25,080 nucleotides of DNA from a virus. The DNA lies in IMG/VR virus record IMGVR_UViG_3300020152_000055, positions 1-25,080 of that record, one strand, 5' to 3'. Below are positions 18,805 through 25,028 of this stretch, in pieces. Within the stretch, counting starts at the first letter, position 1. Each line of letters starts with the position of its first letter. The translations under genes and the position numbers were made by a program. The notes beneath the pieces were generated by a model. The model was not told the origin of the DNA. It did no database searches and saw only the letters and a program-made list of their open reading frames with translations.

Positions 18805-19452
18805 TCACGCTCCCTTCTTGCGGGCCACGGGTGCCCCAAGGATGACGGTGTCTCCCTCGCGCTTCGTGCCGATGCTGGCCAGCGCGCGAACGCCCATCGC
18901 GGCATCGACGGCGTCGAACTCGGTGCCCGCAGTCTCGCCGCCGGCGTCGCCCTGGCCCTCGCCACGCGTGCCTCCCACCGTTGCGGCGCTCGCGGCGTGC
19001 TTGGGCGCCTTGGCCTTCGGGATAGCGTTGACGATGGCCTTCACCTCGGCGAGCGGCTTCCCGTCCAAAACCTTGAGAAGGTCCTTCGATAGGTCGGGGC
19101 GAGACGCGAGGAACGTCCGTCGCTCTGAGCTCTCGTTCGAGCGCTTGAGCTGCGCGACCTCGGCGCCGAGCTCGTTCACACGAGCGGCGAGGCCGCCGGC
19201 GGTGGACGCAGATACGGTGCCAGAGGACACTGCGGCAGTCGCCGCGGTTGCCGCGCTCGCGGCGCTCTCGTCCTTCTCCTCGTCGTCCTCGGACTCGGCG
19301 CTCTCGTCCTTCTCCTCGTCGTCCTCGGACTCGGCGCTCTCGTCCTTCTCCTCGTCCATTGCGGCGAGGGCGCGCTGTGCGCGCTTGGCCTCTTCATCGT
19401 CGCCCTTCGCCGCCTCCTCGAGCGCTGCGCGGGCCTCTGCATACTTGGACAT
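18805..19452 (-). CDS. Nested scaffold protein, internal start in the protease gene
   Basis: ATG at 19452 is in frame (codon 249 of the protease gene) and is preceded by a perfect AAGGAG 5 nt upstream, far better than expected by chance inside a coding region. It lies exactly at the domain boundary, just after the protease fold (ending FDELLASLASQGAT). The product would be 215 residues: MSKYAEARAALEEAAKG start, acidic repeats, coiled coil and basic tail. This matches the lambda C/Nu3 and Mu I/Z arrangement, where the scaffold is made in excess from an internal start. It would lack S115 and K167 and so be inactive as protease. Confidence 0.8.
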   Translation of the reverse strand: MSKYAEARAALEEAAKGDDEEAKRAQRALAAMDEEKDESAESEDDEEKDESAESEDDEEKDESAASAATAATAAVSSGTVSASTAGGLAARVNELGAEVAQLKRSNESSERRTFLASRPDLSKDLLKVLDGKPLAEVKAIVNAIPKAKAPKHAASAATVGGTRGEGQGDAGGETAGTEFDAVDAAMGVRALASIGTKREGDTVILGAPVARKKGA

Positions 19453-20196
19453 GGTCGCTCCTTGGCTCGCGAGTGATGCGAGCAGCTCGTCGAACGTTTG
19501 GACGCGATCCACAAGGCCGGCGGCTTTCGCCTCCGGACCGTGCATCACCTTTGCCTGTAGGCCTTGAAAGTGCTTCGCCGGCTTGCCGCGCATGTCCGCG
19601 ACCAGGCCAAAGAACACAGCGGCCATGGAGTTCACGATCTCCTGCTTCGCTGCTATCTCAGCGTCGGTCACAGGGACGTGCGCATGCCCGTACGACTTGA
19701 GCGCTCCGCTCGTGACGTACTCGAACCGGAGCCCCATCGCCTTGTCGAGGGCCGACTGGTCGACGCGAACGTCGAGCACTCCGATGCTCCCGACCACGCT
19801 GGCCATTGGCGCAACGATCATGTGCGCCGCGCACGCATAGGCGTACGCCGCTGAGCACGCCTGCCCGTCCACGAATGCGATCAGCCGTTTGCCGGACTTG
19901 TCTGCTCGTGCGCGAAGGTCGCGCGCGCCGTCGAAGCACCCGAAAACGACGCCTCCGGGCGAGTGGATGCGCAGCACGATCGTGCGCGCGTCGCTTTCGC
20001 AAGCCTCGTCGAAACGCGCAGCGATCGCGTCGTATGAATCCAGGGACGCCGACGCGTGCCGATCCAGTGGACCGCGAATCTTGACGATCGCCACGTCGCC
20101 GATCCGTTCGTTCGAACGGTCGACCACCTCGGGAACGGGCTCTCCGAGCGCACTCGGGTCAATCGCCAGAAGGCCCGTAAGCATGAGCTGCTTCAC
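18805..20196 (-). CDS. Head maturation protease (S49/SppA-like) fused to scaffold
   Basis: The 463-residue protein starts with GTG at 20196, overlapping the portal stop as GTGA. Residues 30-240 are an S49 signal-peptide-peptidase-like domain: TIVLRIHSPGGVVFGCFDG, RLIAFVDGQACSAAYAYACAAH with nucleophile S115 in the ACSAAY box, SVVGSIGVLDVRVD, and K167 in SGALKSYG as general base. Residues 249-463 are scaffold-like: an acidic helix with three copies of DEEKDESAESED, an Ala/Ser linker, a coiled coil (NELGAEVAQLKRSNESSERR) and a basic C-terminal end (VARKKGA). In related phages the protease cuts scaffold and capsid precursors inside the prohead. A separate scaffold start lies within this gene at 19452. 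Confidence 0.85.
   Translation of the reverse strand: MKQLMLTGLLAIDPSALGEPVPEVVDRSNERIGDVAIVKIRGPLDRHASASLDSYDAIAARFDEACESDARTIVLRIHSPGGVVFGCFDGARDLRARADKSGKRLIAFVDGQACSAAYAYACAAHMIVAPMASVVGSIGVLDVRVDQSALDKAMGLRFEYVTSGALKSYGHAHVPVTDAEIAAKQEIVNSMAAVFFGLVADMRGKPAKHFQGLQAKVMHGPEAKAAGLVDRVQTFDELLASLASQGATMSKYAEARAALEEAAKGDDEEAKRAQRALAAMDEEKDESAESEDDEEKDESAESEDDEEKDESAASAATAATAAVSSGTVSASTAGGLAARVNELGAEVAQLKRSNESSERRTFLASRPDLSKDLLKVLDGKPLAEVKAIVNAIPKAKAPKHAASAATVGGTRGEGQGDAGGETAGTEFDAVDAAMGVRALASIGTKREGDTVILGAPVARKKGA
19262..19356 (-). repeat. 36-bp tandem repeat, 2.6 copies, in scaffold
   Basis: Two identical 36-bp copies (19262-19297 and 19298-19333) and a third of 23 bp (19334-19356) lie in frame and encode the 12-residue unit DEEKDESAESED. 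Perfect DNA identity, including third codon positions, suggests a recent slippage expansion. The unit lengthens the acidic linker of the scaffold. Confidence 0.95.
19458..19463 (-). promoter_or_regulatory. Internal ribosome binding site AAGGAG for scaffold
   Basis: The minus strand reads AAGGAG, then CGACC, then ATG (19452). This decides the internal start of the scaffold protein inside the protease gene. Confidence 0.8.
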
Positions 20197-21605
20197 GCTG
20201 CCTCCCGTTCTGCGCTTCGCGCGCGCTGTGCCTTCACCAGTCCGGGGCGCATGCGGCTACGGGCCTCGGCAAGCTCGTTCCCGCCATCATCCTTCGGAGC
20301 TTCGACCTCTGCCGCGCCCTCGAGCAAGGGGATCGCGAACAGAGCGCACATGGCGCGCACGTCAGGACGCAAGCCGTGCGGAGCGAGGCTCTCGGTGAGC
20401 GACTGAATCGCCGAGGACGCACTCGTGAAGGTCTGCGCGACTTGGGCGAGGTCCTTCGGAGGAGTGACGTCCCACGCCATCACCGGGCAGCGGTCGAGCG
20501 CCTCCTCGCCGTAGCGGTGGAGCACGAACACCGGAATGCACTGCGTGTTGATGGTAAAGGCAAGCCCGTCCGCGGTCTCCTTGATCAGGTCCGCGCGGAT
20601 GGACTTGTGAATGTCCGCGTTCGCAAAGCCGGTGCCGCCGTCGGTCGTGACAGTCTGCCCCGCGAGAGCGATCTGAATTTCGGTGTTCTGCTCGGCGATC
20701 GTCTCTTTGAACGACTCCCAGCCACGCCCGTTCGACTCGACGAGCTTGACCTCGTACCCCGGGCTCGTCTGAAACACCGTGTTGACGCCCCACGCCGCGA
20801 CCCGCTTGAACCAGTTCTCTTTCTGCTCCTCGGCCGCACCGTTGGGCGCCTGAGCGACCCGCGCGGGGTGCGCGAGCTTCGACTCCCATGCATCGCGGTA
20901 CAGCGCCGCATGGCTCTTGCGGATGAAGGCGAGGCCGATCGCGCGCCACAGTCCGTTTTGCCATGGGGCGTTGCGCCCACCCGGAACGTGCAGCACCCAC
21001 CGACCATCACCAGGCGTGATCGGAATCAGGCCGATGATCGAGCGGAAGTACCACCGGTTCTCATTCCAGCGGTACGTCAGGAACTGCGGATCAAGACGCA
21101 CGAGAACCGGGTAGTCGCGCCCCTCGACCTTTACGAGCTCGCCCACCGCGACGCCCACGCCAATGCCATCGGCAGCCATGAGAGCGAGCTCGGTCGACGG
21201 CAGCATTTCGTCGAAGCAGGAGCGCACCTCGCCCGTCTCGGCGTAGTGACCGCGCTCGAGGTCGGCGCAAATTTGCTCGTCGCCCTCGAAGCGCTTGGGG
21301 AGCCGCACGAGCCCACCGGTGCGGGTCGCGAGCAGACCGGAGACCACCGCGTCACGGCGCGCCGCGGACCACAGTCGAGCGGCCTGCGCGATGCTGCCGG
21401 AGTCGGCCGCGTGCTCGGCCGCCTCGACGTCGTCGACGTACCATCGAGACTGCGAGTCGGAGAGCGGCTGCATCTGGCCGCCGAACATCCGGCGGAGCTG
21501 CTCAGCGATGGCGGAATCAAGATCGATCGTGCCAGCGGCAGCGGGCGCCCCAGCCTCGTAGGCTGAGATCCCGGCTAACTTTCTGGCGAACGACAGTAGT
21601 CCCAC
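20193..21605 (-). CDS. Portal protein, DUF935/Mu gp29-like
   Basis: The 470-residue protein forms the ring at the unique head vertex through which DNA enters and leaves. It begins with GTG at 21605; the upstream ribosome site is weak. The middle resembles DUF935: DPQFLTYRWNENRWYFRSI, PGDGRWVLHVPGGRNAPWQNGLWRAIGLAFIRKSHA (in part), then IQIALAGQTVTTDGGTGFANADIHKSIRADL, where 'iLGqtlTt..g..G....a..h......d' is the hallmark of the family, and NTQCIPVFVLHRYG. The C-terminal 50 residues are charged and flexible. It is followed directly by the protease; the minor head protein gp30 (F-like) usually found between them in Mu is absent. Confidence 0.88.
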   Translation of the reverse strand: MGLLSFARKLAGISAYEAGAPAAAGTIDLDSAIAEQLRRMFGGQMQPLSDSQSRWYVDDVEAAEHAADSGSIAQAARLWSAARRDAVVSGLLATRTGGLVRLPKRFEGDEQICADLERGHYAETGEVRSCFDEMLPSTELALMAADGIGVGVAVGELVKVEGRDYPVLVRLDPQFLTYRWNENRWYFRSIIGLIPITPGDGRWVLHVPGGRNAPWQNGLWRAIGLAFIRKSHAALYRDAWESKLAHPARVAQAPNGAAEEQKENWFKRVAAWGVNTVFQTSPGYEVKLVESNGRGWESFKETIAEQNTEIQIALAGQTVTTDGGTGFANADIHKSIRADLIKETADGLAFTINTQCIPVFVLHRYGEEALDRCPVMAWDVTPPKDLAQVAQTFTSASSAIQSLTESLAPHGLRPDVRAMCALFAIPLLEGAAEVEAPKDDGGNELAEARSRMRPGLVKAQRARSAEREAA

Positions 21606-21661: not shown

Positions 21662-21868
21662 TCAGCGCCGCGGAGTGTTCCCGCGTTCCCACGGACCGAC
21701 CACAGTCCACACGTGCTCAGCGAGTGCTGCGCGCGCTTTCTTGCTCGGCGTGGTCTCCCCGCTAGCCCACCGGGAGACCGCCGACTGAGTAACGCCGCAC
21801 CTGAGGGCTATCTCGGTCTCGGTCAGAATCTGGAGCGCTGCCAGGAGCTGGCGACGCCCCGGGGTCAT
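21662..21868 (-). CDS. Small XRE/Cro-like HTH DNA-binding protein
   Basis: A 68-residue protein begins at ATG 21868, overlapping the terL stop as ATGA. Residues 8-46 form a clear helix-turn-helix: QLLAALQILTETEIALRCGV, then TQSAVSRWASGETTPSKKAR, the 'e.eiA..lGvs.s.VsrW..G...p' pattern of Cro/C1 proteins. The last 20 residues (EHVWTVVGPWERGNTPRR) are basic and Trp-containing. It is unusual to find such a gene between terminase and portal. It may regulate its own operon or help terminase find DNA ends. It could also be the true small terminase or an inserted gene. Confidence 0.85.
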   Translation of the reverse strand: MTPGRRQLLAALQILTETEIALRCGVTQSAVSRWASGETTPSKKARAALAEHVWTVVGPWERGNTPRR

Positions 21869-23694
21869 CTGCCGCCGTAGGGGTCTATCTTCCCGGCGTA
21901 CGGGTCGAGCGCGTGGACGTCGTCGTCGTACGCCTCAGGCTCTCTGCGGCCCGCCGGCGCGGCCTCTGCGCGCGCTGGCTGCGCCGGAGCGCTGTCATCG
22001 GCCTCCTCGTCGCGCGTCCACATGGGTTCCCACACCGAGAGCGCGAGCGCGTCGTAACGATCCGGAGAGCGCCCCAGGATCTTGCGGATCTCGCGCTTCT
22101 CGATGAGGCGCAGCGGGCCGTCGTCGACCTTGTCCCAGACGAGCACGTGCAGCTCGGCCGAGAGCTTGGCGTCCTCGGGAATGGCTCCGCCGTTGTCCTT
22201 CCCTGGATCGCCGCGCAGCCAGTCGGCGAGATTGCCGCACAGCCGGTCGCGAAGCCGGTGGTAGATCTTACCCTTCGCTTTCGCGCGCTCGCTCGAGCGC
22301 ACGGTCACGAGATCGAACGGAACGTGTTTCGCTCCGAGGAACTTGTGCAGCGCAGACTCGCTATCAGCGTTCAGAAACTCTCGCAACTTCGAGTCGCGCG
22401 GCGCTCCCTCCTCGTAGTCGCGCAGCGCAGTGAGCACCTTGGCGCCGACCTCGCCCTCTGCGTCGATCACAACCACCGGCTTTTCGCCGTCCTCCCGGAG
22501 CTCGACCAGGAGGAGCAGCAGCTCGAGGAGCGACCCGTACTCGTCGAGGCCGCGATGCACGTCGAAGCGGATCGCCTTGCGGCCGCGGCGCGGACAGAGG
22601 CACATCTCGTCACCCGTGCCGGCCTCGCCGGCGGGGTCGAAGCCCACCCACAAGCGGCCCTCCGCTTCGACCTCGGGCCAGCGCTGCTCGCCCTCGAGGA
22701 TGGCCTGCAGCGTGAAAATGCGGCCGTCCTCGCCGATCGGGAAGTCGCCCTCGACGCGCACGCGGTACTGAGGCGAACTCTCGCCCCACTCCTTGCCTTT
22801 CTCCTCGCACCACTCGCGCTCAGCAAGGCCGGGGATCACCGTGCGACCCTGTACGACGTTGGGAGTCTCCTTCGAGCTGACCTTGATTCCCTTGTAGAGC
22901 TCGGCCTTTTTGTGGAACGCCTCGAAGAACTCTCCGACCGTCTTGGTAGGGTTCGAGAACAGCACGATGCGCGCGCCGCCTGCGCGGTTGCCCTCGATGG
23001 CCTCGAAGATCTCGTCAGGGACGCCGCTCGCCTCGTCGATGATGAAGAGCAGATTTTTGCCGCTGATGCCCGCTACCGCCTCGGCCTCCTTAGCTGTGAA
23101 GCCGCTGATCGTCCGGAAGTCGTCGGAGCGCATGCCCGTGCGCGCGAGACGCCCGATCTCGCCGTCGATGAGCGCCGAGTGCACGCACGGCTTGGGGAGC
23201 TTCTCGTCCGCGTCGAGCTGGTGGACGCCAGCGTCGAGGAGCGCTTGATACTCGCGCTTGCACTCGAGACAGCGGCCGCCGCGCGAGCGCAGCATCGAGA
23301 GCTCACGCCAAAGGATCGTGTCGACCTGACGCGAGGTGGTCGAGCTCATCACCACGCGTGCGTCCGGCCAGCTGCAGTAGAACCACAGGGCCAGGATGCC
23401 GGCCGAGTTGCTCTTTCCCGTCTTGTGGCCCGAGCGGATGGCGACGCGCTTGTGGTCGCGTACCGCCTCGAGGATCTCGACCTGCTTCGACCACGGCTCG
23501 ACGCCGAGAATGTCGTGCGCGAACGCGACGGGGTCGTCGCGGTACTTCGAGGAGGGCCACTTAATCCGCTCGCCGGCGCGCACCTTGAGGTCAGCGCGCA
23601 GGAGCGTCGCCAGCCGCCGACCGAACGTCACGGGAGCTCGCGAGGTCCTGCCTCGTGAGCGCTTCGCCACCTCGGCCGCGCGGGATGTGGTCAA
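21865..23694 (-). CDS. terL: Terminase large subunit (ATPase and nuclease)
   Basis: The 609-residue motor packs DNA into the prohead and cuts concatemers. The start is TTG at 23694 (GGGGAG 8 nt upstream, overlap with the previous stop). The ATPase domain has SGHKTGKS (88-95, Walker A) and LLFIIDEAS (215-223, Walker B with E221), then VLFSNPTKTVGEFF. The RNase H-like nuclease domain has GFDPAGE with D353, VVVIDAEGEVG with D411 and PDRYDALALSVW with D545/D548. A C142-x2-C145 ... C170-x-H172 set may form a zinc knuckle inserted in the ATPase domain. The last 60 residues are Ala/Pro/Asp-rich. Length and motifs fit an intact large terminase. Confidence 0.95.
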   Translation of the reverse strand: MTTSRAAEVAKRSRGRTSRAPVTFGRRLATLLRADLKVRAGERIKWPSSKYRDDPVAFAHDILGVEPWSKQVEILEAVRDHKRVAIRSGHKTGKSNSAGILALWFYCSWPDARVVMSSTTSRQVDTILWRELSMLRSRGGRCLECKREYQALLDAGVHQLDADEKLPKPCVHSALIDGEIGRLARTGMRSDDFRTISGFTAKEAEAVAGISGKNLLFIIDEASGVPDEIFEAIEGNRAGGARIVLFSNPTKTVGEFFEAFHKKAELYKGIKVSSKETPNVVQGRTVIPGLAEREWCEEKGKEWGESSPQYRVRVEGDFPIGEDGRIFTLQAILEGEQRWPEVEAEGRLWVGFDPAGEAGTGDEMCLCPRRGRKAIRFDVHRGLDEYGSLLELLLLLVELREDGEKPVVVIDAEGEVGAKVLTALRDYEEGAPRDSKLREFLNADSESALHKFLGAKHVPFDLVTVRSSERAKAKGKIYHRLRDRLCGNLADWLRGDPGKDNGGAIPEDAKLSAELHVLVWDKVDDGPLRLIEKREIRKILGRSPDRYDALALSVWEPMWTRDEEADDSAPAQPARAEAAPAGRREPEAYDDDVHALDPYAGKIDPYGGR

Positions 23695-23894
23695 CGGCAG
23701 CGCTCCCCGGCCCGCTTGACTTGCTCGGCCACATCGAGCTGCGCGCGCGTAATGCGCTCGACGTCGGAACGCGTGATCGCCGGGTCATCGGCACGAGCCA
23801 CCGAGCTCACGCAAGCCCAGGTTCCCTGGCCGGCGAGCCATCCAAGGATCGCGCAGCAAGTCGCACGCACCAGAAACTGAGTCGTCTTGTCCAT
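23691..23894 (-). CDS. Small secreted or membrane-anchored protein, unknown
   Basis: A 67-residue protein begins with ATG at 23894; a GTG at 23900 overlaps the preceding stop, but GGAG is 7 nt from the ATG and only 1 nt from the GTG. Residues 8-28 are hydrophobic (FLVRATCCAILGWLAGQGTWAC) and end VARADD, like a signal peptide with an A-x-A site. The rest is a short amphipathic helix (DVERITRAQLDVAEQVKRAGERC). It sits between the metalloprotease and terL, coupled to both. In Mu, spanin genes lie just before the terminase genes, so an envelope or lysis role is possible. No family is recognised. Confidence 0.7.
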   Translation of the reverse strand: MDKTTQFLVRATCCAILGWLAGQGTWACVSSVARADDPAITRSDVERITRAQLDVAEQVKRAGERCR

Positions 23895-23896
23895 GG

Positions 23897-24391
23897 TCAC
23901 TCTCCAAGCGTCGCGCGAACCGCGGACACGTCGTCATCCGTCACTATGGCCCAAGGCTCGATCGGGTCGTGCCGCACCGAGCCCGGCTCCGATGAGTGCT
24001 CGCGCCCGAGGAGCACGTGCCCCAGCTCGTGCGCGAACACGCGACCAAATTCCGAATGGCCCCAGCGCTCGAGCTCGGCCGCCGTGGGCCGTCGAATCTC
24101 GAGGAACAGCGAGCACTCGGTGGGCGTGAGCTCGCCGTAGCCGTCGCCCATCCCATCGCGAACCCACACGTTCACACGTCCGCAATCCGACAGGCCGCGC
24201 GGCTCGAAGCTCAGCTCGAACAGGTCGCGCCCGACGGCCGCCTCCCACTCAGCCACGCGAGCGGCCATCTCTCGGCGCTCCGCGGGCGACGTCTCGCCGA
24301 GCACCGCGACCGGTACAGGGTAGGTATCTGGCCACCACTCGCGCGAGCAGCCGACCTGGAAGAGCATCACCAACAGCATCGCCCACCGCAT
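23897..24391 (-). CDS. Secreted metzincin-like metalloprotease, lipoprotein candidate
   Basis: The 164-residue protein starts at ATG 24391, one base after the upstream gene ends. The first 15 residues (MRWAMLLVMLFQVGC) are a signal with a possible lipobox VGC, although -3 is Gln. Residues 121-132 read HELGHVLLGREH: H121, E122, H125 and H132 could bind zinc. Metzincins have HExxHxxGxxH, so this has one residue extra. Downstream, GSVRHD has Arg where the Met-turn Met is expected, then TDDDVSAVRATL resembles the final helix of matrixins. Cys70 and Cys93 may pair. It is in the packaging module, coupled to terS-like and small-protein genes, so it is probably made late and may act on envelope proteins. 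Confidence 0.75.
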   Translation of the reverse strand: MRWAMLLVMLFQVGCSREWWPDTYPVPVAVLGETSPAERREMAARVAEWEAAVGRDLFELSFEPRGLSDCGRVNVWVRDGMGDGYGELTPTECSLFLEIRRPTAAELERWGHSEFGRVFAHELGHVLLGREHSSEPGSVRHDPIEPWAIVTDDDVSAVRATLGE

Positions 24392-24392
24392 G

Positions 24393-25028
24393 TCAGATCC
24401 CCGCCTTCTCGATGGCCTCGACCACCGCACGCGCCGCGTCGGGCCACGGCGCCAGAGCTTTGAGCACAACCTCCTCGAATCGGTGCCAGTGCGGGTGCTC
24501 CCGCACGATGCGCTCCTCGATGGCCAGGTCAGCACCGCGCGCACGCTCGTACTGCGTGCGCAGGGAGCCCTCGCGCTCAATGGCGCGAAGGCGCTCGAGG
24601 GGGGCGAGGTTCGTGCCCGTGCGAGCCGCTCGCACCTCCTGCATGAGCTCGAGGAAATGAGCCGCCGAGCTCGCGGGTACCTCGGCCGCTAGCGCGCCGC
24701 CCTGGTCGACCTCGTCGCCGTCCAGCTCCTTGGCGTCCTCCTTGGCTGGCGCGCAGTCCCAGGCCTCGAGGGGAATCCCGTACGCGCGCTTGAGGTGACG
24801 ACGCTGTTCGCTCTCTGGCTGCCGAGAGCCATCGCGCCAGCGCTTCACCGTCGTCCGCGAGCCCACGCACGCGACCTTGGCGACCGTCGCGAGGCTGTCA
24901 TCGAGCGCCAAAAGTAGCCGTTGACCCTCTGAGCGGAGCTGGGCGGACGCGGGAACACTGTTCCCGGCGCTGTTCCCGCCTGTACCCGCGCTTTTTTTCG
25001 CGGCCCGTTCGGAGGTCGGCTTGCTCAT
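24393..25028 (-). CDS. HTH protein in small-terminase position
   Basis: This 211-residue protein begins at ATG 25028; GGGAGG lies about 10 nt upstream. Residues 1-35 are polar (Lys/Asn/Ser-rich). Residues 38-80 form an XRE-like HTH: LLLALDDSLATVAKVACV, then GSRTTVKRWRDGSRQPESEQ with KRAYGIPLEAWDC. An acidic linker and a charged C-terminal helix region (LAPLERLRAIEREGSLRTQYERA in part; ELIMQEVRAA-like) follow, which could oligomerise. This layout, HTH plus helical oligomerisation region, and its place upstream of terL suggest the small terminase, which recognises the packaging site. A regulatory protein is the alternative. The 52 bases to the right edge hold only its leader. Confidence 0.65.
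   Translation of the reverse strand: MSKPTSERAAKKSAGTGGNSAGNSVPASAQLRSEGQRLLLALDDSLATVAKVACVGSRTTVKRWRDGSRQPESEQRRHLKRAYGIPLEAWDCAPAKEDAKELDGDEVDQGGALAAEVPASSAAHFLELMQEVRAARTGTNLAPLERLRAIEREGSLRTQYERARGADLAIEERIVREHPHWHRFEEVVLKALAPWPDAARAVVEAIEKAGI

Follow-up and report, generated by a model that had tools for sequence, protein, structure and literature searches.

A small protein of 164 amino acids, encoded between the terminase genes of a bacterial virus, is very probably a real exported protein with a zincin fold, and the comparison of related phages leaves it highly likely that its gene is accessory cargo carried in a variable interval. The best explanation of its role, to which we assign a probability of roughly 0.4, is that of a late-expressed protease that is tethered in the envelope and aids lysis or virion release. 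To our knowledge, the standard equipment for phage lysis in Gram-negative hosts includes no proteases.

Genome organization

The DNA analyzed here (the window) is a complete 25,080-base IMG/VR record and derives from a temperate-type bacterial virus of the Mu-portal phage lineage. Its minus strand reads as a single late operon across the window, in the order terS-like HTH gene, protease, 69-aa protein, terL, small HTH gene, Mu-type portal and S49 head protease, with the genes beyond taken as those for head and tail; an amidase-type endolysin is encoded near the opposite end (367-942). The features referred to below are as follows.

24393-25028, minus strand: HTH protein, putative small terminase (terS-like), adjoining terL across the lineage; 1 bp from the protease start
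23897-24391, minus strand: exported metzincin-like protease gene, 164 aa, ATG at 24391
24347-24391, minus strand: signal peptide with weak lipobox, residues 1-15, Cys15 putatively lipidated (sequence, alignment, hydrophobic score 2.27)
23996-24031, minus strand: zinc motif H121ELGH125VLLG129REH132 (HExxHxxxGxxH), from the sequence; model helix 114-128
23972-23974, minus strand: Arg140 (CGG), at the position of the Met-turn methionine (alignments)
23691-23900, minus strand: 69-aa protein with an N-terminal TM segment, better start ATG at 23894; overlaps the protease stop and the terL start
21865-23694, minus strand: large terminase terL, TTG start; TTGA overlap with the 69-aa gene
20193-21605, minus strand: Mu-type portal protein PF06074 (Pfam), a downstream late gene
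18805-20196: S49 head protease

Every junction in the run from terS through the protease and the small TM protein to terL is abutting or overlapping, so expression of the protease together with the late packaging genes is likely. The small HTH protein (21662-21868) overlaps the end of terL and is kept both here and in a related phage, L002 (3406-3630).

The protease gene and its motifs

The protease open reading frame is a real gene: its GC content at codon positions 1, 2 and 3 (0.72, 0.50 and 0.84) matches that of real high-GC genes, its neighbors abut or overlap it, and a homologue with 28% identity occupies the same place in L002. A first-pass annotation made from the sequence alone had its coordinates, strand and E122 numbering right, and it had correctly described the zinc motif as one residue longer than HExxHxxGxxH. 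Reading frames of at least 60 codons with the pattern HExxH.{2,3}GxxH occur in 1.5% of random windows drawn from a second-order Markov model, and the motif by itself is only moderately significant against chance; its reality is settled by its conservation in L002 and in a further homologue, L194.

The same annotation had placed an arginine at the Met-turn, and the alignments bear this out. Arg140 lies eight residues past H132 and matches the methionine of MMP-14 (HSSDPSAIM versus HSSEPGSVR) as well as that of a bacterial protein, L207 (HELGHVLLGSGHSSAPGNLM). Its codon is two changes from ATG, so a single sequencing error does not explain it. The N-terminal signal likewise has the weak lipobox that had been noted (FQVGC, C15, with Gln at -3); the cysteine is invariant in all 20 aligned phage homologues, the lipobox of L194 is good (LSAC), and those of a larger group of phage lipoproteins described below (the SIMYP group) are also better. 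Since the signal is present, export is expected, and the product is probably a small exported lipoprotein. A matrixin-like last helix, also proposed earlier, is predicted at residues 152-161.

Weak profile matches to the AHELGH stretch raise the thought of a cytoplasmic peptidase of the ImmA/IrrE type (M78) acting on a repressor. We consider this extremely improbable, because the downstream ExxAxxFA element, with its M78 Glu ligand, was sought in the protease and is absent, unlike in the M78-like matches L148 and L202, and because of the signal peptide, the matrixin-like C-terminal helix and the matches to metzincin folds.

Predicted fold and class membership

Structure prediction and a search against metzincin folds, as the first-pass annotation had proposed, gave matches to matrixins and snapalysin. 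With the 20-sequence alignment as input, the best AlphaFold2 model has a pLDDT of 74.9 and a pTM of 0.70 (the other models range from 67 to 46), and its order of elements, strand-helix-strand-strand-strand-strand-helix-helix with the active-site helix at 114-128, matches that of metzincins; residues 140-147 fall below a pLDDT of 50. The first Foldseek matches are MMP-8 and snapalysin (E values of 4e-4 to 6e-4, probability 1.00, TM near 0.5). VIA-align places karilysin at a Z of 9.9 (rmsd 3.6, 140 residues aligned) and snapalysin at 9.2 (rmsd 3.6, 122 aligned, 20% identity), and its best 50 matches are all metzincins; with a stated background best Z of 7 to 8, this support is good without being overwhelming, and it agrees with the sequence evidence. 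Profile searches also give metzincin matches in the PDB, and together these predictions support a metzincin-type fold.

The definition of a metzincin rests on a spacing and a methionine. The protease has HExxH in the active-site helix (H121-H125, with E122) and, in the moderate-confidence model, the mixed beta sheet and helices A-C, with metzincins as all of its top PDB matches. In place of the exact spacing HExxHxxGxxH/D, it and its phage relatives have HExxHxxxGxxH, and in place of the methionine, which is present in L002 and most SIMYP members, it has Arg140; both features having been tested, it is not a metzincin by strict membership. By its predicted fold, its ligands and its catalytic Glu it nonetheless appears to work like one, and the group as a whole keeps the Met-turn.

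Several known families resemble the protease in part. Matrixins (MEROPS M10A, PF00413), including karilysin and MMP domains, share with it the predicted fold and order of elements, the HExGH helix, the third His and a C-terminal helix after a DDD stretch. They differ in that the protease has an extra residue between the second His and the Gly, Arg for Met, a lipoprotein-type signal and no propeptide, being at 164 aa too short for one with a cysteine switch; its PF00413 score of 18.2 bits is below the gathering cut-off of 24. Snapalysin (M7), a small Streptomyces metzincin with Asp as third ligand and the usual spacing, is a small single-domain protein like the protease, which differs from it in its third-ligand His and longer spacer.

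Homologues and the longer spacer

Relatives of the protease were obtained by way of terL neighbors and by a motif scan of viral contigs. As a single query the protease sequence found no match by tblastn among 50,697 phage records and no relative among the viral contigs, and an NCBIfam search gave no match. Retrieval by terL led to L002, whose terL is 74% identical to that of the window and whose integrase (PF00589) indicates that it is temperate. Directly before terL it encodes P0003, a protein of 155 aa with a signal, a Cys, the long-spaced motif HELGHAVMGSAH and a normal Met-turn, SVMY.

The scan of viral contigs for HELGHxxxGxxH identified L194 as a third close homologue (profile E value 1e-10), with its gene at the end of a tail/baseplate run and, as in the window, without the Met-turn methionine. 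It also identified about 20 phage lipoproteins of about 150 aa, the SIMYP group, which have the long spacer and in which the Met-turn mostly reads SIM(Y)P. A profile-profile comparison of the window group with 21 SIMYP lipoproteins gave a probability of 97.8, with the signal and motif accounting for part of the match. None of the 20 aligned sequences departs from the signal Cys, a single Cys ahead of the active helix, the three His, the Glu or the Gly. Like the protease, SIMYP lipoproteins combine a lipobox Cys, a conserved Cys before the active-site helix and HELGHxxxGxxH; unlike it, they mostly have the SIM(Y)P Met-turn and a Cys in HELGHC, and they match weakly PF18894 (PhageMetallopep, 'Putative phage metallopeptidase'). 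The first member scanned against PF18894 was below the cut-off, 19 of the 21 members match with E values down to 3e-6, and the window protease does not match.

Lipoproteins with HELGHCxxGxxH and SIM(Y)P are widespread (L101, L102, L104, L105, L110, L118, L124, L129, L136, L144, L179, L180, L192, L195 and L197). Their genome contexts vary, with genes beside tail fibre, DNA-metabolism or other genes and not between terS and terL, and two members searched against the annotated phage collection gave no match. A matrixin match in CAKLQH020000026.1 (L013), labelled Acinetobacter phage MD-2021a, was rejected as apparent host contamination: the chromosomal genes around it include dnaK and grpE, and the record also holds purK.

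The same long spacing recurs in two large bacterial proteins that come from the class to which a bin with a related terL belongs; one of the two, L207, is very close to the protease around the motif. The motif scan selects the long spacer by design and is uninformative on its frequency; a motif search in genomes of the class presumed to be the host's gave 28 matches, 2 of them with the long spacer. Because the spacing is common to L002, L194, about 20 phage lipoproteins and these two bacterial proteins, nearly all of them with a Met-turn methionine, the longer spacer is a trait of the group and not a sign of decay, and the Arg at the Met position is particular to the window protease. The earlier description of the protein as divergent thus holds for Arg140, which is truly deviant, and not for the spacer, which phage lipoproteins and some bacterial matrixins have in common.

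These features bear on whether the protein is an inactive zincin, a pseudoenzyme that keeps the fold but has little or no activity as a result of Arg140 and the longer spacer, and that binds an envelope or phage protein. An Arg at an almost invariant Met, the loss of the Met in L194 too and the low pLDDT of the model at 140-147 speak for such a protein, which we nevertheless judge improbable, since the three His and the catalytic Glu have all been kept and, in L002 and the SIMYP group, proteins with the long spacer still have a Met-turn, which means that the spacer itself is no mark of decay. Replacement of the Met-turn Met by His, Ser or Asn made one metzincin too unstable to isolate, whereas Leu or Ser was tolerated in MMP-2 (PMC1266349). 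As tolerance of a missing Met differs between metzincins, we lean no more than modestly toward an active enzyme.

The terS-terL interval

The interval between terS and terL is a variable cargo slot in the Mu-portal phage lineage. Among 76 related loci with both genes, the gap is within about 170 bp in 47 and from 227 to 3,802 bp (loaded) in 29, with gaps taken up to the first position of the terL match and near-duplicates among the contigs. The cargo is varied and includes lipoproteins, signal-peptide proteins, small TM proteins and other genes, among them antirepressor-like ones.

A same-strand reading frame with an N-terminal hydrophobic export or anchor segment is present in 17 of 25 loaded slots, compared with a mean of 4%, and never more than 17% in 300 resamples, for intervals of equal length downstream of terL, and with 3 of 25 on the antisense strand. 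A single rule was applied to slots, control intervals and antisense; the test was designed after a first one had failed and has to be weighed accordingly. That first test for export enrichment relied on greedy ORF calling, which takes wrong-frame ORFs in high-GC DNA, and for this reason it did not reach significance. Structural genes are also a lenient control, so the result separates the slot from the structural module but not from other accessory sites. The contigs of the slot enrichment are the window (23691-24392), L028, L030, L023, L034, L053, L055, L059, L061, L079, L084 and L018.

Five contigs carry in the slot a conserved secreted family of about 170-235 aa with several Cys and the stretch 'HCRFL..LE.A.RK.DDPNAFVCD'; a scan of the L030 member against Pfam gave no match. 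Its members are as follows.

L030, 892-1440
L023, 836-1393
L059, 1428-1949
L084, 3342-4004
L018, 1612-2316

The protease is cargo in just two known phages of the lineage, those of the window and L002. The first-pass annotation had coupled it to the terminase genes, which it does adjoin in both phages. It is not generally linked to terL, because the slot holds accessory cargo, only two known members of the lineage have the protease there, and the farther homologues lie beside tail, DNA-metabolism or other genes; nor is it part of packaging, as the assignment to a packaging module had implied. A virion-associated or assembly protein, a minor tail or head part in lipoprotein form tied to packaging, would fit this adjacency to terL and the position of the L194 gene at the end of a tail/baseplate run, but is very unlikely given the signal peptide with its Cys, the relatives that mostly package DNA without the protease, and the S49 head protease already there.

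The 69-aa protein and the Pro-rich lipoproteins

The 69-aa protein is one of a family whose short members carry a single hydrophobic segment at the N-terminus, along with a helix that mostly ends in ERC(x). In the sequences examined the family occurs only in terS-terL slots (the window, L020, L033, L034, L053, L054, L055, L061/L063 and L079), and a small-protein scan of viral contigs gave no relatives beyond this set. In L033, L034, L053, L055, L061 and L079 the family member follows a Pro/Ala-rich protein with a Cys-rich end, which is a lipoprotein wherever the contig includes its start. In the window the protease occupies the place of the Pro-rich lipoprotein ahead of the 69-aa partner; L002 has the protease without a small partner. 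Pro/Ala-rich lipoproteins with a conserved Cys-rich C-terminal domain are found in the slots of L034, L053, L055, L059, L061/L063, L079 and L033, and are mostly followed directly by a TM protein of 52-67 aa. Two-component spanins, in which an outer-membrane lipoprotein and an inner-membrane TM partner fuse membranes, resemble the slot pair in layout only.

Possible role of the protease

We propose that the protease would be expressed alongside the packaging genes at a late stage of infection, leave the cytoplasm through Sec and, once lipidated at Cys15, remain in the periplasm, perhaps attached to the outer membrane. Its substrates there may be one or a few envelope proteins, such as a tether between outer membrane and peptidoglycan or a lysis or spanin-type partner, whose cleavage would weaken the envelope and so help lysis or virion release; anchoring, regulating or receiving this activity may be the part of the 69-aa single-TM protein. 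Lysis or release is the best guess because of the late-gene layout, the signal and the precedent of Mtz, a phage-derived metzincin that cleaves the lipoprotein Tim; together the two raise phage lysis and virion release in a manner dependent on the catalytic Glu (PMC8235301).

Like the protease locus, Mtz-Tim of Listeria comprises an exported phage-derived metzincin, as an accessory gene, and a small exported partner, and Mtz acts on the envelope at lysis, as proposed here (PMC8235301). Mtz differs in its Gram-positive host, its usual HEXXHXXGXXH, its Met-turn AIMLD, its type I signal and its location in prophages near the holin-lysin (PMC8235301). A literature search on phage metalloproteases, spanins and outer-membrane lysis found nothing relevant. 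The place of the gene in L002, L194, the SIMYP match, the fold, the slot enrichment and the lipoprotein habit of the partner, along with Mtz, suggest a lysis role, and an envelope-related job, as first suggested from the sequence, remains the best guess. Against it stand the absence of the gene from most relatives, which makes it dispensable in the lineage, the endolysin at the other end of the window instead of beside the protease, the Arg at the Met-turn, and the lack of a small partner in L002. If the protein is active, we put lysis or release at even odds.

The same position in Pseudomonas phages holds anti-phage morons: Tab and anti-Tab lie between terS and terL of the Mu-like phage JBD26, and Tab, an 83-residue protein that has no known domain and is not a protease, acts on the tape measure protein and so stops virions from assembling (PMC10884400). 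A moron for superinfection exclusion or host-surface change, in which the protease or its surface binding would shield an infected cell or a lysogen from other phages, perhaps through loss or masking of a receptor, is accordingly a real alternative, the more so as L002 has an integrase and as the slot is both loaded in many relatives and enriched for exported proteins. We hold it unlikely, though less so than an inactive zincin, because the protease gene shares the strand of the late genes and, abutting or overlapping its neighbors, has no room for a promoter of its own; Tab, by contrast, is on the opposite strand with a promoter (PMC10884400).

Returning to lysis and release, a more speculative extension, on which we would not rely, is that the slot is an envelope cassette used late, a lipoprotein plus a single-TM protein, in which a metzincin-like enzyme can replace the Pro-rich lipoprotein; this would be a protein-cutting step in Gram-negative lysis, by an enzyme of non-standard ligand spacing and no Met-turn methionine. 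If active, the protease would widen the definition of metzincins and provide a test of the natural variability of the Met-turn, and the cargo-slot pattern is a place to seek unknown exported phage proteins that alter the host envelope.
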